Translations under genes and position numbers: made by a program
Notes under the pieces: model-generated
What the model was told of the DNA's origin: nothing
Database searches by the model: none
The model's input: the letters and a program-made list of their open reading frames with translations, nothing else
Part shown: positions 5,496 to 57,153 of the stretch, piece after piece
Numbering within the stretch: position 1 is the first letter of the stretch
Layout of the letters: each line of letters starts with the position of its first letter
NCBI GenBank assembly: GCA_025054835.1
Contig: JANWZQ010000139.1
Span: 1-57,381, forward strand
Length of the DNA stretch: 57,381 bases
From: Chthonomonadaceae bacterium
Lineage (GTDB): Bacteria > Armatimonadota > Chthonomonadetes > Chthonomonadales > Chthonomonadaceae
Direction: 5' to 3'

Positions 5496-7916
5496 ATGAG
5501 AGCATACATGGCACACAGAGTGGCGCCTTGCGCGATACTGCTCTTCCTGATGGCTCTGGCGCGGGATCCATCGATGGCCCGACAGAGCCCGCGCACGCGG
5601 GTGGACTTCGCACAGGACATCCTGCCTATCTTTCGCGCCAACTGCTTCTCCTGCCACGGCGACGCGCAGCAACAGGGCGGCCTGCGTCTGGATGCCCGCT
5701 CCTTCCTGCTGCGCGGTGGGGTGAGTGGCCCGGCCCTGTTCCCCGGGAAGAGCGCGAAAAGCCTGCTGCTCACGCGTCTGACCGGACAGGATGGCCGCCC
5801 CCGTATGCCTCTGGGCTTCGCGCCTCTTTCCGAGAAACAGATTGCGTTGATCCGTCGTTGGATCGACCAGGGGGCTTCCTGGTCAGAAGGCACCACACCG
5901 CGCAAACACTGGGCTTACATCCCGCCGGTGCGCCCCCCCATTCCGCGGGTTCGGAACGCTTCCTGGGTGCGCAATCCAATCGATGCGTTCATCCTGGCGC
6001 GTCTCGAGAAAGAGGGCTTGCAACCCTCGCCGGAGGCCGACCGCATCACGTTGATCCGGCGTGTCACTCTGGACCTGATCGGCCTTCCTCCCACCCCGCA
6101 GGAAGTCGACGCGTTTCTTGCGGATCGTTCGCCCAGCGCATACGAGAAAGTCGTGGACCGTCTGCTCGCATCGCCCCATTACGGGGAGCGTATGGCTCTC
6201 CCCTGGTTGGACGCTGCCCGCTATGCCGACAGCAACGGGTTCCAGCAGGACGGTGACACGCACCAGTACATCTGGCGGGACTGGGTGGTGCGTGCCCTTA
6301 ACGCCAACATGCCCTTCGACCAGTTCACGATCGAGCAGCTGGCCGGGGATCTTCTGCCCAACGCCACCGACGCGCAGAAGATCGCTACTGGATTCAATCG
6401 GTGTCACATGCTTAATGGCGAGGGCGGCGCCATCCCGGAAGAACAGCGCCATGTGATCTTGTTCGACCGGGTCGATGTGACTGCGACCAACTGGTTGGGA
6501 GCTACCATGGCCTGCGCACAGTGCCACGATCACAAGTACGACCCGATCACACAGAAGGACTACTACCGCTTCATGGCTTTCTTCAACAACGTTCCGGAGA
6601 GCGGCGTGCCCCCATCCGGAGGGCAGTACCGGATCGCTGAACCCTACCTGACAGTACCCACCCCCGAGGAGGCCGAGACCCTGCGTCAGATGGAGACCCG
6701 GGTGGCCGAGGCGCGGGCCAGAGTGGAAGCGCTTGCGCAGGCCGGTGGCCCTGCACTGGAGGAGGCAAAAGCCCGGCTGACCGCTCTGGAGAAAGAGCGG
6801 GATACGTTCCGCGCCAACCTGCCCCGTGTCATGATCATGTCGGATGCCCGCCCCCGCAAGACCTACATTCTCAACCGGGGTAACTACGAGGCGCCCGGCG
6901 AGGAAGTGACTCCCGATACCCCGGCGTTTCTGCCCCCCATGCCTCCCGGCGCCCCACGGAACCGTCTGGGACTGGCGCAGTGGCTGGTCAGCCCCGATCA
7001 TCCATTGACGGCTCGCGTGCAGGTGAATCGCCTCTGGCAACTCTTCTTTGGGCGCGGGCTGGTCAAGACCTCGGAGGACTTCGGCACACAGGGCGAACGC
7101 CCGACGCACCCGGAGTTGCTGGACTGGCTGGCTGTGGAATTTCGTGACGGGCGCAACGGACGCCGCTGGGACATGAAGCATATCGTGCGCCTCATTGTGA
7201 CCAGCGCTACCTACCGGCAGAGCTCTCGCATGTCCCCGGCATTGCGGGCACGCGATCCGGAGAACCTGCTGTACGCGCGGGGTGCGCGCTTCCGCATGTC
7301 CTCCCTGATCCTGCGGGATGTTGCTCTGGCCTCCAGCGGACTGTTGAACCCGAAGATCGGGGGCAAGCCTGTCTACCCCTACCAGCCCACGGGCATCTGG
7401 GACGGCCTGGCGATCACTAAGGAACGTGACTTCACCTACCCGCAGTCCCGTGGGGCCGATCTCTACCGGCGCAGCATCTACACGTTCTGGCGCCGGACGG
7501 TCGCCCCGGCCAACATGTTCGATGCCTCCACACGCACCACATGCAAGGTCCGTTTGAGCATCACCAGCACACCGTTGCATGCCCTGACCACGCTCAATGA
7601 CGTGACCTGGGTGGAGGCCGGACGGGCGCTTGCCGAACGGGTGATCCGGGAGGCCGGACGGGACGCCGATTCACGGTTGAAGGAGGCGTTCCGCCGGGTG
7701 TGCGCACGCCGGCCGGACCCGCAGGAGCTGGAGGTGCTGCGCCGTAGCCTGCGCCGCGCGCTGACATTCTACCGCGTCCACCGGGCCGACGCGGAGGCCT
7801 ACCTCAAGGTCGGTGAGAGCCCGCGCGACATCAGGATTGATCCTGCGGAGCACGCCGCCTACGCCACTGTCTGTCTGGCCATCTACAATCTGGATGAGGC
7901 TCTGACACGCGAGTAG
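5496..7916 (+). CDS. Secreted cytochrome-c/DUF1549/DUF1553 protein
   Basis: About 806 residues. After a signal-peptide-like start (hydrophobic [13 protein letters not shown]) comes a PSCyt1 haem-binding domain with C50-x2-C53-H54 in [12 protein letters not shown]1549 (PSCyt2) domain follows; it carries a second CxxCH in [11 protein letters not shown], which is normal for the family. A short Ala/Glu coiled-coil segment precedes the C-terminal DUF1553 (PSD1) domain containing [20 protein letters not shown]. The frame extends upstream to 5364, but the signal peptide fixes the start at 5496 or 5508. The neighbour 16 bases downstream is DUF1501, the normal partner. Such pairs are abundant in Planctomycetota and Armatimonadota. 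Their function is not established; roles in polysaccharide or redox processes outside the cytoplasm have been proposed. Confidence 0.93.
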
Positions 7917-7931
7917 CCCTGGAGAGACAGC

Positions 7932-9398
7932 ATGCATCCGGAACTGGAAACATCTCTGGACATCTCACGAAGACACTTTTTCAGCCGTACAGCGACCGGC
8001 ATCGGAGTCGCGGCACTGGCGTTCCTGCTGGAGCAGGACGGCCTGGCGCAGCGCACTGCGCCCTCCACAACGATGCCTCCTCTGCGTGGCCTGCCCCATT
8101 TCCCACCGAAAGCCAGACGGGTGATTGTGCTCTGGCAGGGCGGGGCTCCCTCGCATGTGGATCTGTTCGACTACAAGCCCGGTCTGTACGAGAGGCGCGG
8201 TCAGCAGGTGCCGGAGTCGGTGCGATCGAAGGCGCGGCTCTCCACCATGACGGCCGGACAGAAGTCCTTCCCGGTGCTGCCGCCGCTCCGGCCATTCCGG
8301 CAGTACGGGCGATGCGGAATGTGGCTCTCGGAGATGCTGCCGCACATTGGATCCATCGCCGATGAGATCTGCCTGGTGCGTTCCATGCACACGGAGGCGG
8401 TCAATCATGCGCCGGGGGTCACCCTGTTCCTCACCGGGAGTCAGATCCCGGGTCGTCCCAGCATGGGCGCATGGGCGACCTATGGCCTGGGAAGCCTCAC
8501 CAGCGACCTGCCCGCCTTCTGTGTGATGACCTCCACAGATGCGGGCCGGACCTGCGGGCAGCTGTTCTACGATTACTACTGGGGCAGTGGCTTCCTGCCA
8601 TCCAGATATCAGGGGGTGCGCTTCCGCAGCGAGGGGGACCCGGTGCCCTACCTCGCCAATCCACCGGGAATGCCCGCACCGTTGCGTCGGGGTCAGCTGG
8701 ACGACATCGTGGCCCTCAACCGCAAACGACTGGCCGAGTTCGGGGATCCAGAGATTGAAACCCGGATCGCGCAGTATGAGATGGCCTACCGGATGCAGGC
8801 CAGTGTGCCCGAACTGCTGGACATCTCGAAAGAGCCGCCGCATGTGCTGGAGATGTACGGCCCGGACGTGCATCGCCCCGGCTCCTACGCGCGCAACTGC
8901 CTGCTGGCCCGTCGTCTGGTAGAGCGAGGCGTCCGCTTCGTGCAGTTGATGCATTCCGGGTGGGATCAGCACAGTAACCTCACCACGCAACTGGCCATCC
9001 AGTGCCGGGACACCGATCAACCCACAGCGGCTCTGGTAAAGGACCTGAAGCAACGCGGCCTGCTGGAGGATACCGTTGTGCTCTGGGCCAGTGAGTTCGG
9101 CCGCACGGTTTTCGTGCAGGGCGACGTCAACAACCCCAACGGGCATGGCCGTGACCATCTGGGCTCCTGCTACAGCATCTGGGCGGCTGGAGGTGGCTTC
9201 AAAGGGGGTCTGGTCTACGGCGAGACGGACGACTTCTGCTACAACGTCGCCGAGAACCCGGTGCACGTGCACGATTTTCAGGCCACCCTCCTGCATCTGC
9301 TCGGCATCGATCACACCCGCCTGACCTACACCTATCAGGGGCGCCAGTTCCGCCTGACGGACGTGCACGGCCAGGTGGTCCAAGCCCTTCTGGCCTAG
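7932..9398 (+). CDS. DUF1501 family protein, Tat-exported
   Basis: A 488-residue DUF1501 protein, related to the alkaline-phosphatase/sulfatase fold. The N-terminus has a clear twin-arginine signal, SRRHFFSR, followed by a hydrophobic stretch, so the folded protein is probably exported through Tat. Typical blocks are VIVLWQGGAPSHVDLFDYKP, QLMHSGWDQHSN and ASEFGRTVFVQG...NGHGRDHLG near the C-terminus, which hold the presumed metal ligands. It starts 16 bases after the DUF1549/DUF1553 gene and is surely cotranscribed with it. A strong hairpin follows. Substrate unknown. Confidence 0.94.
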   Translation: MHPELETSLDISRRHFFSRTATGIGVAALAFLLEQDGLAQRTAPSTTMPPLRGLPHFPPKARRVIVLWQGGAPSHVDLFDYKPGLYERRGQQVPESVRSKARLSTMTAGQKSFPVLPPLRPFRQYGRCGMWLSEMLPHIGSIADEICLVRSMHTEAVNHAPGVTLFLTGSQIPGRPSMGAWATYGLGSLTSDLPAFCVMTSTDAGRTCGQLFYDYYWGSGFLPSRYQGVRFRSEGDPVPYLANPPGMPAPLRRGQLDDIVALNRKRLAEFGDPEIETRIAQYEMAYRMQASVPELLDISKEPPHVLEMYGPDVHRPGSYARNCLLARRLVERGVRFVQLMHSGWDQHSNLTTQLAIQCRDTDQPTAALVKDLKQRGLLEDTVVLWASEFGRTVFVQGDVNNPNGHGRDHLGSCYSIWAAGGGFKGGLVYGETDDFCYNVAENPVHVHDFQATLLHLLGIDHTRLTYTYQGRQFRLTDVHGQVVQALLA

Positions 9399-45091: not shown

Positions 45092-47272
45092 TCATGTATC
45101 CAGTACGCAACCGGCAGAGGATTTTAGCGCCGCAGCGTCCACGTTCACACCGTGGTGCCCCTGCGAACGGAACCAGATGGTCTCGACAGCCACGAAGACC
45201 AGAAGCCCCAGAAGCCCCCCCAGAATAACGCCCAGACTGCCCCGCCACAGGGAGACAATCAACGGGGAATGGATATGGCAGAACGTGTTGAGCAGAGACA
45301 CCTGTCCGAGACTACCCGCCACCATACAGGGAACAGCCAGATAGCAACGCCCACGCCACCACCAGAGCAGACCGAGCAGCAATGCCGGGTGACCAATCAG
45401 AAACTCCTTGGTACGCGGGCGCACAGGCAGTACCCGATCGAGAAAAGCCCGGGCCTTCAGCTCCAGCCCCGATACCCCGAACCCGACGTCGTTACCCGTG
45501 CGGATCAACAGCAACGCGAACGCCACCAGCACAACAATTCCCGTCAGCAGCAGCCCGGCACGCACCGGCTCTCCCGCAACAGTGCGCAGGCGCCTCCCGG
45601 CCCGTGCCAGGAACTGCCCCGCGCTCTCGCTGGAGCGCGCCGCGCCGCCTACCGCTGCCAGCAGGGCCACAATCAGCAGGGGAACTGCATGTTGCGCCTT
45701 GATGCCGAGAAACTGACTGGTCTGCGTCATGAATACCCTTGAGGATAGCAGTCCGACCACATGCGTCACGCCGATCAGGGTCACTGCACAGGCCAGCAGG
45801 AAGCCCGACAGGGCGCGCATCACGCACTCCGAAAGGCGCAGCACCCGCCCCGGCTCCGCCCCGGGCCACACGGTCAGGCAGGCAATTGCAGGAAAGAGGA
45901 TTCCTGCCAGCAGGGCAACTCCCCTGACGCCGAGATTGCCGGGCATCAACACGCTCCCCATGCAAATGGCGCCCAGCAACAGCAGTACCTGCCAGTTCGA
46001 CCGGGTAGATAGCGGACAGATCCTGTTCAACAACCAGACTGCTCCAGCAGCTACCCCGAGCGCAATCCATGCCCGGATCACCACAGGCACCCCGGTCTCC
46101 GCGAAAGGGCGTGAGGCTCCCAGCCCCATACCGCCTGCCGTGAGAGCACGTCCGCGTTGCAGGCCGCGCGCGATCCGCCCCACGAACTGTGCATTGCGCG
46201 CTACCGGGTCCTCGCCAGCAAGCGGCAGCAGACGCACGTAGAGAAAGCGGATATTGCGTTCTCTGGCCGCGCGCACGAAGCGATCTACAATCTCCGCTTC
46301 ATCCAGCAGCGCTGCCTCCGTAGCCAGGACGGCATGCACGCGCACGAAGCCGCCGACGAGTTCTGTTGAGAGACGTGTGTCTCCTTTTTGCTTGCCAAAC
46401 TCCACCGCGCCGTAGTGCAGGCCTGTTGGTTGCAACCCTGCCTGCGGGGATTCATCCGGAGTGCGCAAGAGATGTGCAACCGCCGGTTCTACCCCCCGGT
46501 AGCCCAGCACTTCCTCACCACTGAATATGACCGTGGTTGCCCCCTGCGCCTGCAGGTCACGCAACACGCGCTCGGCGGTCGCCGCACGGACTCCCGCAAA
46601 GTTGGCGATGCGCCCGGCGATGCGTAAGCCCGAAGCGCGCGCCACCGCAACAGCCTCCGCGGGCAACCCCAGCCCGAGCCGTTCCAGAGAGGGGTATGCC
46701 ACAGGCGTCGCAACTGCTGCAGGGTCCGGAGGAGCCACAGAGAAATCTGGCAGGAAAAGCGTGCGCCATTCCGCCGATCTCTCCGGGTGCCCCTCCATCT
46801 GACGCAAGGCCAGCGCCCGCTGGATCCGCATGTAGTCTGAACGTCGGCGTACCCGGACAACCGTCACCTCACGGGTTTCTGGCCCGGGGTCCTGTTCTGC
46901 TCCCTCCTCTGGCCCCGCGTTCCGTGCTGGCTGTGCCGAGGGCTCTGCTGTATTCGTGGCATCCACGCGGATTCGCCCTGCCCGCAGCAGAGTGGCAAGG
47001 GTCTCTTCCTCAATGATCAGGGCACGAACCCCCTGCGCTTTGAACACAGACAGTATTTCCTGCACGGGCCTTCCGGTAACCCCGGCAAGCTCGACCACGG
47101 CCGTCCACTCCACACCAATCTCCACACGACGATTGGCCATCTCAACACGGAAACGCAGAGCGGCAGCCAGGAGTCCTGCTACCGTGGCGGTAGCGATCAG
47201 AGCCATCAGAACCCATGCGAGAAAACGTGAGGCAGTGTCTGTTGCTCTTGCAGGCCTGAAACCCGGGATCAT
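45092..47272 (-). CDS. DUF5693 family polytopic membrane protein
   Basis: A 726-residue protein. A membrane anchor near residues 17-42 is followed by an extracytoplasmic domain of about 350 residues; its EIGVEWTAVVELAG and EILSVFKAQGVRALIIEEETLA segments match DUF5693. The C-terminal half has around eight membrane helices ending near LLVFVAVETIWF. Genes of this family regularly sit next to csaB; their job is unknown, but transport or assembly of the cell-wall polymer has been suggested by context. ATG 47272 overlaps the rhomboid stop in ATGA. An acidic insertion around residues 110-135 (Glu/Pro-rich) looks like a linker. Confidence 0.9.
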   Translation of the reverse strand: MIPGFRPARATDTASRFLAWVLMALIATATVAGLLAAALRFRVEMANRRVEIGVEWTAVVELAGVTGRPVQEILSVFKAQGVRALIIEEETLATLLRAGRIRVDATNTAEPSAQPARNAGPEEGAEQDPGPETREVTVVRVRRRSDYMRIQRALALRQMEGHPERSAEWRTLFLPDFSVAPPDPAAVATPVAYPSLERLGLGLPAEAVAVARASGLRIAGRIANFAGVRAATAERVLRDLQAQGATTVIFSGEEVLGYRGVEPAVAHLLRTPDESPQAGLQPTGLHYGAVEFGKQKGDTRLSTELVGGFVRVHAVLATEAALLDEAEIVDRFVRAARERNIRFLYVRLLPLAGEDPVARNAQFVGRIARGLQRGRALTAGGMGLGASRPFAETGVPVVIRAWIALGVAAGAVWLLNRICPLSTRSNWQVLLLLGAICMGSVLMPGNLGVRGVALLAGILFPAIACLTVWPGAEPGRVLRLSECVMRALSGFLLACAVTLIGVTHVVGLLSSRVFMTQTSQFLGIKAQHAVPLLIVALLAAVGGAARSSESAGQFLARAGRRLRTVAGEPVRAGLLLTGIVVLVAFALLLIRTGNDVGFGVSGLELKARAFLDRVLPVRPRTKEFLIGHPALLLGLLWWWRGRCYLAVPCMVAGSLGQVSLLNTFCHIHSPLIVSLWRGSLGVILGGLLGLLVFVAVETIWFRSQGHHGVNVDAAALKSSAGCVLDT

Positions 47273-48129
47273 GGCCAGGGCTCCGGCGGATACGGATAGT
47301 CCGCAGCCTGCGGGCGTGTGTTCAGCAGTCGCCGGCCGCCCATGAGCAGAATAAGCAGTGCTCCTGTGACGAACCCGCCAATGTGCGCCAGATAGGCTAC
47401 CCCTCCACCCCGGGTCAGCATCTCCCCTCCGAAGAGTTGCGTGTGCAACACCTGCAGCAACACCCAGAAGCCAATGACCAGAACGGCAGGCACCTCCATC
47501 AATGTGCTCAGAATGCCAAACAGGGGAACGATGCTCAGAATGCGGGCGTGCGGATAGAGGAGCAAATAGGCCCCCATCAACCCGGCCACAGCCCCGCTTG
47601 CGCCCACGGTGGGCACGGTAGACGTCGGGTCACTGGCAATGTGCACTGCGGCGGCCCCGACCCCGCTCAGCAGGTAGAACATCACGAAACGCGCTCTCCC
47701 CAGCACGTCCTCGATGTTGTTGCCAAACACCCAGAGATAGAGCATGTTGCCCCCGATGTGCAGCCAGCTGGCGTGCAGGAACATGGAGGTGAAAACTGTC
47801 AACCATGCCGGATGCGTCAGTTGCGGGAGAACAAGAGCAGCTCCCCGATCCGGAGGTAGCCCGGTGACATACGCCGGGACCAGCGCGTAGCGCAGTGTGA
47901 GGATGCCAACGGTGTCGCGCACACGCACCGGCACGCCATACGGATTGGCGGCAATCCGTTCGATGAGCACCGGTGTGAATGTGTCATACAGGAAGACAAG
48001 CGTGTTGATCAGGATCAACACAACGCAGATGACCGGGAAGTGCCGTGTCGGGTTGCGGTCGGTCAGAGGTATCAAAGCGACTGCTTCCTCAAGGGTGGCG
48101 GCTGCGCCATATGGGAGAGATTGTGACAT
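47269..48129 (-). CDS. Rhomboid family intramembrane serine protease
   Basis: A 286-residue protein with six predicted membrane helices. The catalytic dyad is S178 in GASGAVAG and H249 in YLAHIGGFVTG; H119, H124 and N128 in LHASWLHIGGNM are the usual rhomboid residues of TM2. A long periplasmic loop between TM1 and TM2 is present. Rhomboids cut transmembrane anchors within the membrane. It is the first gene of the DUF5693-csaB set and overlaps DUF5693 by four bases, so its substrate may be an envelope protein of the same operon. It diverges from ubiD by 170 bases. Confidence 0.95.
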   Translation of the reverse strand: MSQSLPYGAAATLEEAVALIPLTDRNPTRHFPVICVVLILINTLVFLYDTFTPVLIERIAANPYGVPVRVRDTVGILTLRYALVPAYVTGLPPDRGAALVLPQLTHPAWLTVFTSMFLHASWLHIGGNMLYLWVFGNNIEDVLGRARFVMFYLLSGVGAAAVHIASDPTSTVPTVGASGAVAGLMGAYLLLYPHARILSIVPLFGILSTLMEVPAVLVIGFWVLLQVLHTQLFGGEMLTRGGGVAYLAHIGGFVTGALLILLMGGRRLLNTRPQAADYPYPPEPWP

Positions 48130-48212: not shown

Positions 48213-48241
48213 TTGACTTCCCTCTGACCTGCAGGTATACT
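48213..48241 (+). promoter_or_regulatory. Promoter of the ubiD-mqn operon
   Basis: TTGACT (48213-48218), 17 bases, TATACT (48236-48241). Near-consensus sigma-70 promoter about 59 bases before the ubiD start. Confidence 0.75.
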
Positions 48242-48299: not shown

Positions 48300-49757
48300 A
48301 TGGCGTACCGTGACTTTCAGGACTTCCTGCAGCGGCTGGAGGCAGAAGGGGAGCTGAAGCGAATTTCAGTTCCTGTGGACCCGTATCTGGAGATCACCGA
48401 GGTGGCCGACCGGGTGATGAAGATGCCCGGGGGCGGCCCCGCACTGCTCTTCGAGAACCCCGGAGGCAAACAGATCCCTCTGGCAATCAATGTGTTCGGG
48501 TCCCGTAAGCGCATGAGCATGGCGCTCGGCGTCCAGGACCTCGAGGAGATCGCCTGCGAGATCGAAGACCTGCTCAAACCGGAGGTCCCGCGCGGCATCT
48601 GGAACGCGGCTCGCGAACTGCTGCCGAAGCTGGCTGTCCTTACAAAGGTTCCGCCCCGTTATGAAAAGGGAGAAGGACGCTGCCAGGAGGTCGTGCTGAC
48701 CGGAGACGATGTGGATCTGGATCGCTTTCCCATCCTGCACTGCTGGCCGCAGGACGGGGGGCGCTACATCACGCTGCCACTCGTGTTCACGCACGATCCC
48801 AACAACGGAAAGCGCAACGTCGGGATGTATCGCGTGCAGGTGTTCGACAAGCGCACCACCGCGATGCACTGGCAGATGCACAAGGTCGGTGCGGAGCATG
48901 CGCGCCTGAGTGCAGAACAGCGCAAAAAGATCGATGTGGCCATTGTGCTCGGAGGTGACCCGGCCCTGACCTATGCCGCAACGGCGCCGTTGCCACCGGG
49001 CATTGATGAGATGCTATTTGCGGGATTCCTGCGCAAGAAGCCGGTACGCCTCGTCCGGGCCAGGACGGTCGATGTGGATGTCCCGGAAGATGCTGAGATC
49101 GTGATCGAGGGGCAGATCGACCCGCTGGAGTTGCGCATGGAAGGTCCTTTCGGAGATCACACGGGCTATTACTCTCTGGCGGACATGTACCCGGTGCTGC
49201 ACGTTACAGCGATCACACATCGCCGGAACCCGGTGTACCCGGCCACGATCGTGGGGCGCCCCCCTATGGAAGATGGCTGGCTGGGCAAGGCCACGGAACG
49301 GATCTTCCTGCCCTTGCTCCGGCTCACCCTGCCGGAGATCGTGGATATGAACCTGCCCGTGGAAGGCATTTTCCACAACATTGCGCTCGTCTCCATTCGC
49401 AAGCGGTATCCCGGCCATGCCTTCAAAGTCATGCACGCGCTCTGGGGTCTGGGACAGGCGATGTTTACCAAGATGATTTTTGTGTTCGATCATGATGTCA
49501 ATGTGCAGGATATCAAGGAGTGCCTGTGGCGGCTCGGCAACAACATCGATCCGGAGCGTGACATGTGTCTGGTGCGTGGCCCCATTGATGTGCTGGACCA
49601 CGCCTCTCGCGCCGTTGGCTTCGGCTCCAAAATTGGCTTTGATTGCACGCGTAAGCTGCCCGCGGAGGGTTTCCATCGGGAGTGGCCCGACGTCATTGAG
49701 ATGACTCCTGAAATCAAGCGGCGCGTGGACGCTCTGTGGAACCAGCTCGGCCTGTAG
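48300..49757 (+). CDS. UbiD family decarboxylase (menaquinone route)
   Basis: A 485-residue UbiD-type prenylated-FMN decarboxylase, normal length. Visible marks: the N-terminal LQRLEAEGELKRIS, the FPILHCWPQDGGRYITLPLVFTHDP region split across the flavin site, the E-x-x-E-type loop in EGPFGDHTGYYSLADMYP, and KVMHALWGLGQAMFTKM. In this context the enzyme probably decarboxylates the 1,4-dihydroxy-6-naphthoate-type acid or its prenylated form in futalosine-dependent menaquinone synthesis (MqnL-like). UbiX, which makes the prenyl-FMN cofactor, lies two genes downstream. GGAG precedes ATG 48300. Confidence 0.94.
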   Translation: MAYRDFQDFLQRLEAEGELKRISVPVDPYLEITEVADRVMKMPGGGPALLFENPGGKQIPLAINVFGSRKRMSMALGVQDLEEIACEIEDLLKPEVPRGIWNAARELLPKLAVLTKVPPRYEKGEGRCQEVVLTGDDVDLDRFPILHCWPQDGGRYITLPLVFTHDPNNGKRNVGMYRVQVFDKRTTAMHWQMHKVGAEHARLSAEQRKKIDVAIVLGGDPALTYAATAPLPPGIDEMLFAGFLRKKPVRLVRARTVDVDVPEDAEIVIEGQIDPLELRMEGPFGDHTGYYSLADMYPVLHVTAITHRRNPVYPATIVGRPPMEDGWLGKATERIFLPLLRLTLPEIVDMNLPVEGIFHNIALVSIRKRYPGHAFKVMHALWGLGQAMFTKMIFVFDHDVNVQDIKECLWRLGNNIDPERDMCLVRGPIDVLDHASRAVGFGSKIGFDCTRKLPAEGFHREWPDVIEMTPEIKRRVDALWNQLGL

Positions 49758-49799
49758 AAGCGTCCAACAGAGCAATTCATGCGCATACAGGAGCAGTCC

Positions 49800-50420
49800 A
49801 TGTTTCCTCCTGAGGATCGTTTGCAGGGTACAACCGAACCGGCACCTACAGGAGCACACCCGTTGTTCATCACAGACATGCAATGGGGTGAGCAACCCGT
49901 TCGCCTGACCGCTCTGGCAGTACGCGAGCTGCCGCAGGACGCGCCAACCACTTCGGTGCACATTGTGGCGTTCCAGGGCGAGCGTGTTCTGGTGGTCCGT
50001 GACCGGCGTGGCGCGTTCGGATTTCCCGGCGGGCGACTGGAGGAGGGAGAGAGCTACGAGGCTGCTCTTGAACGGGAAGTCTACGAAGAAGCCAGAGCGC
50101 GCCTGAAGCCCGAGAAGATCCTGTTCGCTGTGCTGAAGATCGAGTGGACTCAACGGCTCGCGCACCGTACCTACCCGTATGACTACTCCTACATGGCCAT
50201 GTACACCGGGCAGATCCGCGCTCTCGAACCCATTGGCGCCGACCCGGCCGGTGTGATCACCGGGCGCGATCTGTTCACATGCGCGGACTGTGAGCGCCTG
50301 CTGCCGGAGAACAACAGGATCCTGTTGCGTCAGGCCCTGTGTGCCCTGTCCGCCCGACCGGAGGCCTATCGGCGCACTCTGCGCGCCTTCGCCGCAATGC
50401 TGCGGGAGGGTCGCAAGTGA
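49800..50420 (+). CDS. Nudix hydrolase
   Basis: About 206 residues. The Nudix box runs GGRLEEGESYEAALE then REVYEEAR, matching G-x5-E-x7-R-E-x-x-E-E but with Arg where the final Gly normally is. Nudix enzymes cleave nucleoside-diphosphate-linked compounds; the true substrate here is unknown. ATG 49800 has CAGGAG eight bases upstream and is preferred to ATG 49779. The stop overlaps the ubiX GTG start in GTGA, so it is translated with the menaquinone genes. A Nudix gene is not a standard part of the futalosine pathway. Confidence 0.88.
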   Translation: MFPPEDRLQGTTEPAPTGAHPLFITDMQWGEQPVRLTALAVRELPQDAPTTSVHIVAFQGERVLVVRDRRGAFGFPGGRLEEGESYEAALEREVYEEARARLKPEKILFAVLKIEWTQRLAHRTYPYDYSYMAMYTGQIRALEPIGADPAGVITGRDLFTCADCERLLPENNRILLRQALCALSARPEAYRRTLRAFAAMLREGRK

Positions 50421-51031
50421 CCCTGGCTTCCCCACAGACCGGGCGTCTGGTTGTGGCCATTACCGGAGCGAGCGGCGCTCCTTACGCGCTCCGCTTTCTG
50501 GAAGAGGCTACCAGACACTATGCCGAGATCTATCTGATGCTCTCGGATCAGGCCCTGCAGGTCATCTGTCTGGAGACAGAGCGCCGGGTCACACCACGCA
50601 CTCTGTCCGCGGAGGCTTTGCTGGGGCACCCCTGTCCCGGTCTGCGTATCCTCGATAAGAAGAACTACTTCTCGCCTCCGGCCAGCGGCTCTTTCCGTCA
50701 TGATGGGATGGTCATCGTGCCCTGCTCCATGGGCACGGCGGCCCGGATCGCCAATGGGGTCAGCGATGACCTGATCACACGCGCTGCCGATGTCTGCTTG
50801 AAGGAACGCCGCCGGCTGGTGCTGGTGCCGCGCGAAATGCCCTGGAACCTGATCCACCTGCGCAACCTGACACAGCTGGCCGAGGCCGGCGCCGTGATCC
50901 TGCCGGCCTCCCCGGGTTTCTACCACAGGCCACACACGATCGACGACCTGGTCAACCATGTGGTCGCACGCATTCTGCAGCAACTGGGGATCGAGCAACA
51001 TCTGGTGCCGCAATGGCAATATGAGGAGTGA
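50417..51031 (+). CDS. ubiX: UbiX flavin prenyltransferase
   Basis: A 204-residue protein starting with GTG at 50417; GGGAGGG lies six bases upstream. UbiX joins FMN and dimethylallyl phosphate to make the prenyl-FMN cofactor for UbiD. The FMN-binding start is VVAITGASGAPYALRFLE. VIVPCSMGTAARIANGVSDDLITRAADV and LVPREMPWNLIHLRNL are diagnostic. The open frame extends upstream to 50339 but only as read-through of the nudix gene. The stop overlaps the next gene's region. Confidence 0.96.
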   Translation: MTLASPQTGRLVVAITGASGAPYALRFLEEATRHYAEIYLMLSDQALQVICLETERRVTPRTLSAEALLGHPCPGLRILDKKNYFSPPASGSFRHDGMVIVPCSMGTAARIANGVSDDLITRAADVCLKERRRLVLVPREMPWNLIHLRNLTQLAEAGAVILPASPGFYHRPHTIDDLVNHVVARILQQLGIEQHLVPQWQYEE

Positions 51032-51036
51032 ACACG

Positions 51037-51906
51037 GTGCGTGCGTTCTGGCGGCAGATGCGCCTGATCCTGGACATGATCAAGTTCGAGCATACGATCT
51101 TCGCACTTCCCTTTGCGTTGATCGGAGCGATCCTGGCGGCGGGTAGAAACTGGCCCTCGGCGCGCGAGCTTGGCTGGATCCTGACCGCGATGGTCGGTGC
51201 GCGCAGCGCTGCGATGTCTTTCAACCGTCTGGTGGACGCCCCATTCGATGCGCAGAACCCGCGCACAGCCCGACGCCATATACCGGCCGGGTTGCTGTCG
51301 CGCACCCATGTCTGGACGTTCTTCATCGCATCCACCGCTCTCTTCTTCCTGGCTGCATGGCAATTGAGCCCGCTCTGCCTGTGGCTGGCTCCGATCGCCC
51401 TGCTGGTGATCTGCGGCTACTCCTACACCAAGCGGTTCACGCCCCTGTGTCATCTGTTTCTCGGCTTCGCCATCGGGATTGCGCCCATTGGCGCCTGGAT
51501 CGCTATTCGCGGGACCCTCGACCCGGTCCCTCTGCTACTGGGCGCGGCCGTGATGCTCTGGATCGGCGGATTTGACATCATCTACGCCCTGCAGGACTAT
51601 GAGTTTGACCTGCGCTCGCCCCTGCATTCCCTGCCGAAGCGTCTGGGCAAGGCGGGCGCACTCCGGGTCTCGCGCGCGATGCACGCCATGATGTTGCTGC
51701 TTCTGGTCGCTGCAGGCGTGTTGCAGGGCCTGCATGCGCTCTACTTCCTCGGGGTGGCCGTTGTTGCCGCGCTCATTGCCTACGAACAGAGCCTGGTGCA
51801 CCCCGATGACCTGAGCCGGGTCGACATGGCGTTTTTCACATTGAACGGATGGGTCAGCGTGAGCCTGCTCGCGTTCGTCTTGCTGGACAGAGTGGTTCTG
51901 CACTGA
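51037..51906 (+). CDS. mqnP: UbiA-family prenyltransferase, MqnP type
   Basis: About 289 residues, polytopic. The two Asp-rich prenyl-diphosphate sites are visible: FNRLVDAPFDAQNPRTARR in the first loop and DIIYALQDYEFD in the second. NPRTARR after the first site is typical of the MqnP/menaquinone-related UbiA group. A GTG at 51037 has AGGAG eight bases upstream; GTG 51028, overlapping the ubiX stop in GTGA, is an alternative. Eight or nine membrane helices. Expected role: prenylation of 1,4-dihydroxy-6-naphthoate in the futalosine route, with isoprenoid from the MEP pathway (dxs). Confidence 0.93.
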   Translation: MRAFWRQMRLILDMIKFEHTIFALPFALIGAILAAGRNWPSARELGWILTAMVGARSAAMSFNRLVDAPFDAQNPRTARRHIPAGLLSRTHVWTFFIASTALFFLAAWQLSPLCLWLAPIALLVICGYSYTKRFTPLCHLFLGFAIGIAPIGAWIAIRGTLDPVPLLLGAAVMLWIGGFDIIYALQDYEFDLRSPLHSLPKRLGKAGALRVSRAMHAMMLLLLVAAGVLQGLHALYFLGVAVVAALIAYEQSLVHPDDLSRVDMAFFTLNGWVSVSLLAFVLLDRVVLH

Positions 51907-51916
51907 GAGGATCGCA

Positions 51917-52702
51917 ATGCCATTCCGGATCGGCAGTGTACCTTACCTGAACGCCAAGCCGCTGGTGGACTGGTTCCACAGCGACACATGCACGGTACAG
52001 GCGCAGGTGACCTATGACGTACCTTCGCGACTGGCCCGGATGCTCCGGGAGGATGCGGTGGACGTGGCCAACGTCTCCATATTCGAAGCGTTCCAGAACC
52101 CGGAGCTGGCGCTCGTACCGGGCATCGCCATTGCGGCGTTCGGTCCGGTGAAAAGCGTCCGGCTCTTCTCGAAAGTACCTCTGGACCGCGTCCGCTCCGT
52201 TGCACTGGACACCAGTTCGCTCACGTCGGCGGCGCTCACACGCATCCTCCTCAAAGAACAGTTCGGGGTTACTCCCTGTTACGTGCATCATCCACCGGAT
52301 CTCGCAACCATGTTGCGCACCTGCGACGCCGGTTTGATCATTGGCGACCTGAAGCTGTTCGCTCTGATCCCGGAGATACAGGTGTATGACCTCGGACAGG
52401 GGTGGCTGGACCTGACCGGTCTGCCCTTCGTATACGCCGCATGGCTGGCTCGCCGGGACCGTATCTCTCCCGATCTGATTGCTGCACTGGAACAGGCCAG
52501 AGCATGGGGGATGGAAAGACGGGAACAACTGGCACAGAAGTGGGCTCGCATCATGGATCTGCCACTGGATCGTTGCCGGGACTATCTGCTGCATGTGATG
52601 CACTATGAACTCGGCCCGGAGTACCGGGAAGGCCTGCAGCTGTTTCAACGCAAGTGCTACGAGCACGGACTGATCCATACATTGCTACCTCTCAGTGGTT
52701 GA
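51917..52702 (+). CDS. mqnA: Chorismate dehydratase MqnA
   Basis: A 261-residue MqnA protein, first enzyme of the futalosine pathway: it dehydrates chorismate to 3-[(1-carboxyvinyl)oxy]benzoate. The family start RIGSVPYLNAKPLVDWF, the SRLARMLREDAVDVANVSIFEAF segment and GLPFVYAAWLARRD near the C-terminal third all match. It is ten bases after the mqnP stop. mqnB, mqnC, mqnD and mqnE are not in the window and must lie elsewhere if the pathway is complete. Confidence 0.95.
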   Translation: MPFRIGSVPYLNAKPLVDWFHSDTCTVQAQVTYDVPSRLARMLREDAVDVANVSIFEAFQNPELALVPGIAIAAFGPVKSVRLFSKVPLDRVRSVALDTSSLTSAALTRILLKEQFGVTPCYVHHPPDLATMLRTCDAGLIIGDLKLFALIPEIQVYDLGQGWLDLTGLPFVYAAWLARRDRISPDLIAALEQARAWGMERREQLAQKWARIMDLPLDRCRDYLLHVMHYELGPEYREGLQLFQRKCYEHGLIHTLLPLSG

Positions 52703-52708
52703 AAGGTC

Positions 52709-53836
52709 GTGGTTCCTGCCGGATCCAGTGAGCTACGTGTGGCCATGATGGTACGTCCGGCGGCAGGAGGAATTCGCAGTCACGTGGCTACCCTGCTGAC
52801 ACTCCTGCCCGCCTCTCGCTTCCGCATCGACCTGATGGCCCCCCACGACTTCACCCTGCCGGATTTTGTCCCGGAAGTTCCGCATTGCGTCGTGCCACTG
52901 CACGCCCGTACGAACCCGCTGGCCGACTGGCGTGCCCTTCGGGAATGCACGCAAATACTGGCCCGGCACCGTTATCACCTGCTGCATGCGCATGGCCTGC
53001 GCGCCGGGTTGATCGGGGCGATGGCGGCACGACAGGCCGGGATCCCCACCGTATGTACCGCACACAACCTGATTGCCCCTCCCTCGCTGCTAGAGCGTTT
53101 GTTCTTCTGGCTCACTGTCCGCCAGGTACACTGCTGGATCGCAGTCTCTCAGGCCGTGCGGGATCAGCTGGTCGCCATCGGAGCGCCCCACGACGCTATC
53201 CGGGTCATCCCGAATGGTGTGGACCTCGCGCGTTGCGTGCCACGCTATCCCGGCTCTGCAGTGCGCACGCAGTATGGCGTTCCACAGGAGGCCCCGCTGA
53301 TCGTGGCGCTCGGCCGCCTCTCCCGTGAGAAGGGGTTTGATGTCCTGATCGAGGCGATGCGTGGCGTGTGGGCGCAAATCCCGGAGGCACATCTGGTCCT
53401 CGCGGGAAGCGGGCCGGAGGAGATGACGCTCCGGCGCCTGACACAGGGAAACCATCGGATCGTGATGCCCGGCTTTGTGGAGTCGTCCTGTGACCTGCTT
53501 GCGGCGGCCGACGTCGTGGCCGTGCCTTCCCGACTGGAAGGACAGGGTCTGACAGCGCTGGAGGCCATGGCAGCACGGAAGCCCGTTGTGGCCACACAGG
53601 TAGGCGGCCTGACGGAGACCGTTCTCGAAGGGGTGACCGGGCGTCTGGTTCCTCCAGAGAACCCGACCGCACTCGCCAGCGCACTGTTGGAGCTACTGGC
53701 AGATCCGGCGCGGCGCGCAACCATGGGGGAAGCAGGACGCCGACGTGTGGAACGAGAGTTCCCGGCGACGCGCATGGTAGCGCAGGTAGAGACCGTGTAC
53801 CGCGACGTACTGGAACAGAACGAGCAGCAATGCTGA
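52709..53836 (+). CDS. Glycosyltransferase family 4 protein
   Basis: About 375 residues with a GT-B fold. The N-terminal domain has the acceptor-side loop MVRPAAGGIRSHVATLL and HAHGLRAGLIGAMAARQAG. The C-terminal donor domain begins ALGRLSREKGFDVLIEAM and carries the E-x7-E pair in EGQGLTALEAMAARKPVV. GT4 enzymes build lipopolysaccharide, glycolipids or other glycans. The frame starts with GTG at 52709; an ATG at 52745 is an alternative and better fits the fold start. The stop overlaps rsmG by seven bases. A link to menaquinone is not expected; it probably shares only the transcript. Confidence 0.92.
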   Translation: MVPAGSSELRVAMMVRPAAGGIRSHVATLLTLLPASRFRIDLMAPHDFTLPDFVPEVPHCVVPLHARTNPLADWRALRECTQILARHRYHLLHAHGLRAGLIGAMAARQAGIPTVCTAHNLIAPPSLLERLFFWLTVRQVHCWIAVSQAVRDQLVAIGAPHDAIRVIPNGVDLARCVPRYPGSAVRTQYGVPQEAPLIVALGRLSREKGFDVLIEAMRGVWAQIPEAHLVLAGSGPEEMTLRRLTQGNHRIVMPGFVESSCDLLAAADVVAVPSRLEGQGLTALEAMAARKPVVATQVGGLTETVLEGVTGRLVPPENPTALASALLELLADPARRATMGEAGRRRVEREFPATRMVAQVETVYRDVLEQNEQQC

Positions 53837-54540
53837 GCGAGACGCAACGAACGCAACTGATCGCAGGAGCCCGGGCATGGGGGGTAACACTGGATGACCG
53901 GGCGGTAGCTCGCTTTGATCAGTTCGCCCGCATGCTGCACGCGGCCAATCAGGAGTTCAATCTCACGCGGATTCGGCCGGAGGATATTGTCCCGCTGCAT
54001 TTCCTCGACTCTCTATCGGTACTGGCCGTATGGCACCCTGCAGAGGGCGCACGTGTGCTGGACGTGGGCACCGGGGCCGGATTTCCCGGGTTGCCGCTGG
54101 CAATCGCCTGCCCGCAACTGGATATCACGTTGCTGGACGGTACGCGGAAACGCCTGGCATTTGTGGATACCGTGATCGCAGCACTGGAGCTGGATCACGT
54201 GCGCACACTGCACGGGCGCGCAGAAGAGATCGTCCGTCTTCCCGCCTACTGCGAGCAGTTCGATGTGACAACCGCACGTGCCGTGGCAAAAATGCCCCGG
54301 CTGGTGCAGTGGTTGCTGCCACTCACGCGCCCGGGGGGCCTGGCCATCGCGCTCAAAAGCCGGGATCTGCAGGATGAGCTAGAACAGGCCCTGCCGGTGG
54401 TCCGTGCGCTTGGTGCTCGGGTCGAGCGGGTGGCGGAATTGACGTTGCCGGGAACAGAAATCCTGCGCAAGCTGGTCTGCCTGCGCAAACACAGAACCCC
54501 CTCTCGAACAACGCGGGGCCTCCAGAGGAGATCCCCCTGA
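53830..54540 (+). CDS. rsmG: 16S rRNA (guanine527-N7)-methyltransferase RsmG
   Basis: A 236-residue SAM-dependent methyltransferase acting on G527 of 16S rRNA. FDQFARMLHAANQEFNLTRI, the SAM motif VLDVGTGAGFPGLPLAIACP, and ARAVAKMPRLVQWLLPL are diagnostic. ATG 53830 overlaps the glycosyltransferase stop by seven bases. The last 15 residues are basic and extra to the usual length. Convergent with hppA, with 45 bases between stops and no clear hairpin. Confidence 0.96.
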   Translation: MLSETQRTQLIAGARAWGVTLDDRAVARFDQFARMLHAANQEFNLTRIRPEDIVPLHFLDSLSVLAVWHPAEGARVLDVGTGAGFPGLPLAIACPQLDITLLDGTRKRLAFVDTVIAALELDHVRTLHGRAEEIVRLPAYCEQFDVTTARAVAKMPRLVQWLLPLTRPGGLAIALKSRDLQDELEQALPVVRALGARVERVAELTLPGTEILRKLVCLRKHRTPSRTTRGLQRRSP

Positions 54541-54585: not shown

Positions 54586-57153
54586 CTACTGCCCGGAAGC
54601 GATCTCTGGCTTCGGACTGCCCGGCGTGAGCGTGTCCATGGTCGGCATCTGATCCACGATGCTTCCTCGCTTGCTCCAGAAGATGGCGCCTGCGAGGAAC
54701 GCCACCGCGATGATCACCACCAGCAGTCGTGCGGTCACCGGAATATCCTGGATCACCACGCCCGCAATCAGGATGCCGGTCAGGTTCATCACCTTGATGA
54801 GCGGGTTGAGCGCGGGGCCAGCCGTGTCCTTGAACGGATCACCTACTGTATCACAGATGACGCCCGCTTTGTGGTATTCCGTGCCCTTGCCTCCGAAGAG
54901 ACCATCTTCTATCTTCTTCTTGGCGTTGTCCCATGCGCCGCCCGAGTTAGACAGCAACACGGCCATCAGTTGCCCGCTGATGATTGCACCGGCCAGGTAC
55001 CCCCCGAGCGCGGCCGCACCCACATCCGGCCGACGGAAGCCAAGGCCGAAGCCGACCAGGATGGGCAGAGCAATGGCCAGAATACCGGGGCCAATCAGCT
55101 CCTTCTGAGCCGCAGCGGTTACGATGGCCACGCAACGCGCGTAGTTGGGGCGACTTGTCCCTGCCATGATCCCGGGATCCTCACGGAACTGCCGGCGCAC
55201 TTCCTCGATCAGATGGAACGCCGCGCGCCCCACCGCGTTGATGGAGAACGCAGAGAAGAGGAAGGGAGCGGCGCCACCAATGAGCAGCCCGATGAACACT
55301 TCCGGAACGTCCAGAGGAATGCCCACGATTTTGCCACGCCCCAGCTCCGATGCCATGCTGCTCCATTGCGCGGTCTCTGTAGGCGGCAGCAGGTTGGCAT
55401 CAGTCATGAACGAGCGGAACAGAGCGACCGCTGCGATGACCGCCGTGGCGATGGCGAAGCCCTTCGTCAGGGCCTTGGTTGTGTTGCCCACTGCATCCAG
55501 CCGCCCGACGATCCGGTCACCGGAGAGGCCTCCTGCTGCAACGGTCTGCCCGCTGGCCCGGTCCTCTTCCAGCACACCCGACATCTCGAAGATCCCGTTC
55601 GCGTTGTCGGTGATCGGGCCGAAGGTGTCCATGGCCAGAATGTAGCCCGTGGTGGTCAGCAGGCCCAGACCCGCCAGCGCGATGCCATAGGCGGCCAGCA
55701 ACGTGTTGCCCGCGAAGACCAGCAGGGCGGCCAGAATGGTCAGACAGATGGCCACCACGCTCCATACCGAGGACTCCAGACCGTAGGAGAAGCCACTGAT
55801 GATCATCGTGGCGGGTCCCGTCTTGGAGTTATAGGCCACCTCGGTAACCGGCTTCTTCTGCGTCGATGTGAAGTACTCGGTGAGCGCGCCGATCACAACG
55901 GCCAGCACAATCCCGACAAAGGTACACAGGAAGAAGCGCCACCATTCGTAGATCTGATTGCCACTGCCGTCTGGCAACGGGATCTCCACTCCTCGCCCGA
56001 ACCAGAGATACGACCCGACGCCAAACAGGATGACCGCAAGGATCGCGCTCACGCGGAAGCCCTGATTGATGGGTTGCATGGGATCCAGATCCTCGCGGTC
56101 CTGCCCCTTGACGGCGAACACCCCGATGATGGAGGCCAGCACCCCCACCGCGCGCACGATCAACGGGTACATCACCAGTTGCAGCGCGCTGTCACGGAGG
56201 AGCACGTTGGTCTGCCACTGCGTCATGGGAATGACAGCCGCGCCCAGAATGATGGCCGCCACCAGAGTTACCTCATAGCTTTCAAACACGTCGGCGGCCA
56301 TGCCGGCGCAATCGCCCACGTTATCGCCCACGTTATCCGCGATGGTCGCCGGGTTGCGCGGGTCGTCCTCCGGAATGCCCGCCTCGACCTTCCCCACCAG
56401 GTCGGCCCCCACATCGGCGGCTTTGGTGAAGATGCCGCCACCAACACGCATGAAGAGAGCCGCCAGCGATCCGCCAAAGCCGAAGCCGACGAGAATAAGC
56501 ATCGCTTTCTCGCGGTAGATGAGAAAGACGAGACAGGCCCCGATCAATCCCAGACCGACCGTCATCATGCCAGAGACCGCACCGGCCCGGAAGGCTGTCT
56601 CCAGAGCGCCCTTGAATGTGGTGCGCGCCTGATTGGCTGTACGCTGGTTGCCAATCGTCGCCATGCCCATCCCGACGTAGCCAGCAATGTACGAGGCAGC
56701 AACGCCCGCGATGAAGAAGATCGCTACGCCAATGGCCTCCCGGATGCCGTACCCGAGAGCCTCCTGCCCCCGGTACAGCAGGAACAGACCGATAGCGATG
56801 ATCACAACCAGCAGCAGCATCGCCTTGATCTGCTGCTGCAGGTACGCCAGCGCACCGTCCCGAATGGCCCTGCCGACCTCTTCCATGCGTGACGTGCCGG
56901 GGCTCTGACTGGCAACGCTACGATACCAGTACCATCCCATGAAAACCGACAGCAGCCCGGAGAGAAACACAATCCAGATCAGCAGCACGTCCTGCTGGCG
57001 GAATTGCGGCAGAGCAACCGCCTCTGCGGCGTGCGCCGCGCGTGCGGAGAACAGCAAACTCAGAACCAGTGGGAATGCAAACAAGCGTGAAACAAGCAGA
57101 TTTTTTCCAGGGAGTGCCATGGCGCTCCATTGCCCGGTTCGGCGACTGTTCAT
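54586..57153 (-). CDS. hppA: Membrane H+-translocating pyrophosphatase, K+-independent
   Basis: An 855-residue polytopic enzyme that couples pyrophosphate hydrolysis to ion pumping. The catalytic signature is intact: TKAADVGADLVGKVEAGIPE and DNVGDNVGDCAGMAADVFE. The motif GNTTKA puts Lys at residue 560 where K+-dependent enzymes have Ala, so this is the K+-independent, proton-pumping class. Residues about 20-42 form a signal-peptide-like start ending in AHA that many relatives lack. ATG 57153 has AAGGAGGA about ten bases upstream; ATG 57120 is an alternative. Its own promoter lies 88-118 bases upstream. It would use pyrophosphate from biosynthesis to support the proton gradient. Confidence 0.97.
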   Translation of the reverse strand: MNSRRTGQWSAMALPGKNLLVSRLFAFPLVLSLLFSARAAHAAEAVALPQFRQQDVLLIWIVFLSGLLSVFMGWYWYRSVASQSPGTSRMEEVGRAIRDGALAYLQQQIKAMLLLVVIIAIGLFLLYRGQEALGYGIREAIGVAIFFIAGVAASYIAGYVGMGMATIGNQRTANQARTTFKGALETAFRAGAVSGMMTVGLGLIGACLVFLIYREKAMLILVGFGFGGSLAALFMRVGGGIFTKAADVGADLVGKVEAGIPEDDPRNPATIADNVGDNVGDCAGMAADVFESYEVTLVAAIILGAAVIPMTQWQTNVLLRDSALQLVMYPLIVRAVGVLASIIGVFAVKGQDREDLDPMQPINQGFRVSAILAVILFGVGSYLWFGRGVEIPLPDGSGNQIYEWWRFFLCTFVGIVLAVVIGALTEYFTSTQKKPVTEVAYNSKTGPATMIISGFSYGLESSVWSVVAICLTILAALLVFAGNTLLAAYGIALAGLGLLTTTGYILAMDTFGPITDNANGIFEMSGVLEEDRASGQTVAAGGLSGDRIVGRLDAVGNTTKALTKGFAIATAVIAAVALFRSFMTDANLLPPTETAQWSSMASELGRGKIVGIPLDVPEVFIGLLIGGAAPFLFSAFSINAVGRAAFHLIEEVRRQFREDPGIMAGTSRPNYARCVAIVTAAAQKELIGPGILAIALPILVGFGLGFRRPDVGAAALGGYLAGAIISGQLMAVLLSNSGGAWDNAKKKIEDGLFGGKGTEYHKAGVICDTVGDPFKDTAGPALNPLIKVMNLTGILIAGVVIQDIPVTARLLVVIIAVAFLAGAIFWSKRGSIVDQMPTMDTLTPGSPKPEIASGQ

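Follow-up and report, generated by a model that had tools for sequence, protein, structure and literature searches.

What does a gene for a Nudix hydrolase do in an operon for menaquinone synthesis? The question is raised by a stretch of 57,381 nucleotides from a Chthonomonadaceae bacterium (contig JANWZQ010000139.1 of assembly GCA_025054835.1), which is referred to here as the window. An earlier note on this DNA had proposed that the enzyme supplies dimethylallyl monophosphate (DMAP) to UbiX, the flavin prenyltransferase encoded by the next gene. We consider it probable, on comparative sequence grounds, that the Nudix protein is a dedicated supplier of UbiX that converts dimethylallyl diphosphate (DMAPP), the predicted substrate, to DMAP. 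This reading builds on three observations: a conserved and often overlapping nudix-ubiX gene pair, a complete catalytic motif, and the exchange of the Nudix gene for a PAP2-superfamily phosphatase gene in the same slot. From these, we infer the substrate, the product and the handover to UbiX. In the proposed mechanism, the Nudix protein would hydrolyze DMAPP, drawn from the methylerythritol phosphate (MEP) pathway, to DMAP and phosphate; UbiX would join DMAP to reduced flavin mononucleotide (FMN), producing prenylated FMN; and the neighboring UbiD would use prenylated FMN in the futalosine pathway to menaquinone, removing the carboxyl group of the prenylated naphthoate. The genes concerned, and a site 5' of them, are located in the window as follows.

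48213-48241, + strand, promoter-like site TTGACT-17-TATACT, 5' of ubiD, from a consensus scan only
48300-49757, + strand, ubiD, menaquinone decarboxylase family (TIGR03701, 639.5 bits, cut-off 495.9)
49779-50420 (likely start ATG at 49800), + strand, nudix, UbiX-linked subfamily (PF00293, 43.4 bits, cut-off 21.1)
50417-51031, + strand, ubiX, flavin prenyltransferase, GTG start (TIGR00421, 204.4 bits, cut-off 108.9)
51028-51906, + strand, UbiA-like prenyltransferase, probable mqnP (TIGR01475, 313.5 bits, cut-off 180.8)
51917-52702, + strand, mqnA, chorismate dehydratase by name (PF02621, 191 bits, cut-off 26)

Open reading frames (ORFs) and family scans bear out the five-gene order given in the earlier note, with ubiD, nudix, ubiX, mqnP and mqnA arranged head to tail on the plus strand. 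At 50417-50420, the sequence GTGA contains both the stop of nudix and the start of ubiX, as had also been claimed, and the ubiX/mqnP junction is an overlap of the same type. The prenyltransferase at 51028-51906 passes the general UbiA-like cut-off only, the MqnP-specific exception models matching below theirs. The Nudix gene likely starts at the ATG at 49800 rather than at 49779, because this ATG, codon 8 of the longer ORF, is preceded by AGGAG and aligns with the starts of relatives.

The distribution of the Nudix gene was surveyed in the window's own family (f1, 17 genomes), in the sister families within its order (f2/f3, 14 genomes), in a distant family (f15), and across the phylum. A search of 61 relatives recovered the protein at 52-63% identity in 15 further f1 genomes. 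A profile built from 17 members was then run over 291 genomes of the phylum, in 209 of which ubiX was located. It gave 24 strong matches, all of at least 146 bits, ahead of a next-best score of 52 bits; 16 are in f1 and 8 in f15. Thus, the gene is present in 16 of the 17 f1 genomes, G008 being the only one without it. The earlier note had put forward co-occurrence with ubiX as a check, and its absence as a refutation of the proposal. The co-occurrence is very strong: in 23 of the 24 cases, the Nudix gene immediately precedes ubiX in the same orientation. At the 22 measurable junctions, the distance ranges from -8 to +56 nt and 11 pairs overlap; among possible ubiX starts, the one closest to the nudix stop was used, a choice that biases these values toward short gaps, and locus L073 was excluded because its ubiX is frameshifted. 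A contiguous ubiD accompanies 14 of the 23 pairs and mqnP comes next in 19. At three loci (L154, L157 and L158), the pair stands alone, with no ubiD, mqnP or mqnA within the examined pieces of 5-9 kb, and mqnP is also missing from L082. Because ubiX is the sole constant partner, the stable unit appears to be nudix-ubiX, not the menaquinone operon as a whole. It should be noted that 80 neighborhoods, one of them without ubiX, were examined, compared to the 209 genomes of the phylum with ubiX. A single scan outside the phylum returned two loci with weak partial Nudix matches. An apparent UbiD-Nudix fusion in G067, a 678-aa open frame, was rejected because the part preceding the Nudix domain is an out-of-frame reading of ubiD.

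The sister families carry a different gene in the same position. In all 13 f2/f3 genomes with ubiX, a gene for a PAP2-superfamily phosphatase lies between ubiD and ubiX, at the following places.

L084, 9083-9880, - strand, slot PAP2 gene
L085, 7875-8747, slot PAP2 gene
L086, 7372-8031, - strand, slot PAP2 gene
L144-L153, slot PAP2 genes

Three of these proteins were tested against PF01569 and score 78-90 bits (cut-off 27.2). The motif SR-x5-H-x3-D is found in 13 of 13, and PSGH in 12, with LSGH in the remaining one. Across the 291 genomes, a profile of the 13 proteins retrieves exactly those 13 at 267 bits or more, followed by a match at 132 bits; no f1 genome (0/17) reaches E 1e-15 with it. 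Within the order (31 genomes), 16 genomes have Nudix only, 13 have the slot PAP2 only, and two have neither, G008 and G019, the latter an incomplete genome with no detectable ubiX; the two genes never co-occur. Nudix is found in 0 of the 14 f2/f3 genomes and the slot-type PAP2 in 13 of them. Fisher tests of these distributions (16/17 versus 0/13 and 0/17 versus 13/13) ignore shared ancestry and, therefore, are not used as proof. In the UbiX tree, f1 UbiX and nine of the 13 PAP2-linked UbiX share a clade (26 rows, support 97/87); the other four PAP2-linked rows fall elsewhere, partly on long branches, and the Nudix-linked f15 UbiX form a separate group (94/79). Given the shared clade, the exchange is most simply explained as having taken place in situ, with the other operon genes keeping their order. 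The nearest NCBIfam models of the three tested PAP2 proteins are the undecaprenyl-diphosphatases SepP and YbjG, together with PgpB, with scores that fall well short of the cut-offs, and the best solved relative in a profile search is LpxE.

Two unrelated phosphohydrolases, one of them soluble (Nudix) and the other a membrane protein (PAP2), are thus swapped in one slot beside ubiX, and the simplest step that they could share is DMAPP to DMAP. The earlier proposal of DMAP supply is partly supported: the association with ubiX and the displacement by PAP2 both fit a diphosphate-to-monophosphate step, with DMAPP itself as the predicted substrate.

The catalytic motif of the Nudix protein, GX5EX7REUXEE, is complete, and the catalytic residues are retained in all 24 members of the subfamily. 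The last glycine of the Nudix box is replaced by arginine in the window, as the earlier note had stated, and this glycine of the 23-residue consensus is found in none of the 24 members; a loss shared by the whole subfamily is no sign of decay. The final glycine is not a catalytic residue. In an alignment, human NUDT15 likewise lacks it, so its absence is no argument for inactivity. An AlphaFold2 model (predicted local distance difference test score of 89.7) gives as its best fold match B. subtilis RppH (4jzv; Foldseek E 1.6e-8; Z 14.9, root-mean-square deviation 3.3, 151 aligned), and the fold neighbors include NudC. The protein is classified as Nudix from its domain score, its catalytic residues and the fold of this model, despite the missing glycine. 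It does not reach the RppH/YtkD equivalog, with YtkD the best NCBIfam match (32.2 bits, cut-off 154.4), or that of MutT (22.2 bits, cut-off 97.9). Identification of a prenyl-diphosphate type of Nudix by fold search was dropped, as this search returned only generic Nudix neighbors.

Several points weigh against a role in DMAP supply. The fold match is generic, with RppH first, AtNUDX1 with geraniol at rank 16 and RhNUDX1 with geranyl diphosphate at rank 20. Genome G075 has the Nudix gene and no ubiX detectable in the genome or on the contig piece carrying Nudix, and G008 has UbiX and neither Nudix nor PAP2. In most of the phylum's other families, UbiX occurs with neither Nudix nor this PAP2: neither subfamily adjoins ubiX at 43 UbiX loci in other families, and neither is in the slot at three UbiX loci from the f15 genus g53. 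At these many loci, UbiX would either use DMAPP or obtain the monophosphate from elsewhere. According to the available part of PMC6541611, several UbiX enzymes take DMAP as substrate, and the UbiX of E. coli K12 and that of A. niger use DMAPP directly; in the same part, residue 181 of PaUbiX is said to block or bind the beta-phosphate, without being the sole determinant. With phenylalanine taken as the mark of a DMAP-dependent UbiX, the equivalent residue is phenylalanine (11) or histidine (5, including the window) in f1, threonine (6) or phenylalanine (1) in f15, and threonine (9), histidine (2) or serine (2) beside PAP2; the 43 other loci have threonine (29), phenylalanine (10), serine (3) or methionine (1). 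Residue 181 was rejected as a predictor of dependence on DMAP because it does not separate loci with a phosphatase gene from those without. Finally, the Nudix encoded beside a UbiD-family gene in the tubercidin cluster hydrolyzes a nucleotide (available part of PMC6112128); hence, closeness to prenylated-FMN genes is no proof of substrate.

The slot holds other genes in some genomes. At L083, the locus of G008, a prolyl-tRNA synthetase-like (proS) gene, judged by sequence, occupies 6772-8208 between ubiD and ubiX. The ORFs listed for the ubiD-ubiX gap of L186 and L188-L190, judged by eye, are unlike Nudix or PAP2; L190 has two short ones, the first PIN-domain-like, which are perhaps a toxin-antitoxin pair.

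The generic fold also agrees with a different reading, under which the Nudix protein has a housecleaning role or hydrolyzes RNA or nucleotides, its gene being in the operon by chance. RppH as the best fold match, YtkD as the best family match and the nucleotide substrate in the tubercidin cluster (PMC6112128, in part) all point this way; however, neither so tight and exclusive a link to ubiX in two families nor an exchange for PAP2 would be expected of a housecleaning gene, and we regard this reading as unlikely. Trimming of longer prenyl diphosphates, either for MqnP or for the general balance of prenyl diphosphates, with the tie to ubiX a matter of operon inheritance, is a quite unlikely role for the enzyme. 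Such a role would be consistent with mqnP following most pairs, with the nearest PAP2 models, which act on long prenyl diphosphates, and with E. coli NudB, whose substrates also include geranyl and farnesyl diphosphate (available part of PMC6058358). Conversely, nudix-ubiX is kept where mqnP is missing, at L082, L154, L157 and L158. Cleavage of flavin adenine dinucleotide (FAD) to FMN and adenosine monophosphate, feeding the other substrate of UbiX, would account for the same gene pairing; NudC is among the fold relatives, and some Nudix enzymes are known to act on flavins or dinucleotides. We nevertheless judge this very unlikely, since riboflavin kinase already provides FMN and FAD pyrophosphatase activity is implausible for the slot PAP2. 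That the Nudix protein serves UbiX as a structural or chaperone-like partner, with no need for catalysis, is highly improbable, because, although reading frames overlap in half of the measured pairs, the Nudix catalytic residues are intact throughout and the PAP2 replacements retain their motifs.

In favor of DMAP supply to UbiX, the preferred reading, the window's own genome has ispH, so DMAPP should be available, and it has no HK-family (ThiM) match over cut-off. As to the futalosine pathway, an mqnC-like gene elsewhere in the genome is a full-length match of 344 bits, below the cut-off of 428.1. Two PF02621 genes exceed the cut-off in the genome, the mqnA of the operon and a second one elsewhere, which we take to be mqnD. 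A broader proposal, that a DMAPP phosphohydrolase is a third enzyme dedicated to the synthesis of prenylated FMN and encoded in the operon, and that this step has been filled at least twice by unrelated folds in the same slot, we hold to be evenly balanced between true and false.

The near-consensus promoter of the earlier note corresponds to the promoter-like site 5' of ubiD, which matches 10 of 12 consensus positions; the match alone is weak evidence, since a consensus scan of 6.1 kb gave 4 such promoter-like sites versus 1.2 +/- 1.1 in shuffles. Downstream of mqnA and close to it, genes for a GT4 glycosyltransferase and rsmG (52709-54540) have the same orientation, and the transcript may therefore run beyond the menaquinone genes. 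A gene for a membrane-bound sodium/proton pyrophosphatase (54586-57153, - strand; PF03030, 821.6 bits) faces the operon. Divergent from ubiD are genes for a DUF5693 protein and a rhomboid protease (45092-48129, - strand), which overlap by 4 nt.

The cellular source of DMAP for UbiX is poorly settled; general Nudix enzymes and ThiM, of E. coli, are those named so far in the literature available to us. Searches of an open-access library found no description of a nudix-ubiX gene pair, and the available parts of PMC4746308, on quinone genes, and of PMC8854274 mention no phosphatase that serves UbiX. The ubiX-linked Nudix enzyme and its independent replacement would be two concrete candidates for assay, and, if the prediction is true, a dedicated DMAP supplier would assist the construction of active UbiD decarboxylases in heterologous hosts.

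Among the closest known systems are Nudix enzymes of E. coli reported to make DMAP. According to the available part of PMC12359138, NudJ converts DMAPP to DMAP in vitro and is depicted as feeding the synthesis of prenylated FMN, and NudB, NudF and NudI act on DMAPP; NudB is also cited as yielding DMAP (PMC6058358, in part). These are general enzymes, whereas the window Nudix belongs to a separate subfamily in a ubiX operon, and the NudJ structure 3dku shows only generic profile similarity to it (E 1.1e-4, Nudix core only). The geranyl diphosphate hydrolases AtNUDX1 and RhNUDX1 share the Nudix fold and the conversion of an isoprenoid diphosphate to a monophosphate, but neither is the top fold or sequence match of the window protein. 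B. subtilis RppH/YtkD is the best fold match, yet the window protein falls far short of that equivalog. The prenyl-diphosphate phosphatases YbjG, SepP and PgpB provide the nearest models for the f2/f3 slot gene, which differs from them in scoring far below the equivalog cut-offs and in sitting between ubiD and ubiX. Compared to the known UbiX-UbiD system, the ubiX and ubiD of the window are ordinary members, and what sets these loci apart is the extra phosphohydrolase gene, Nudix or PAP2, between them.

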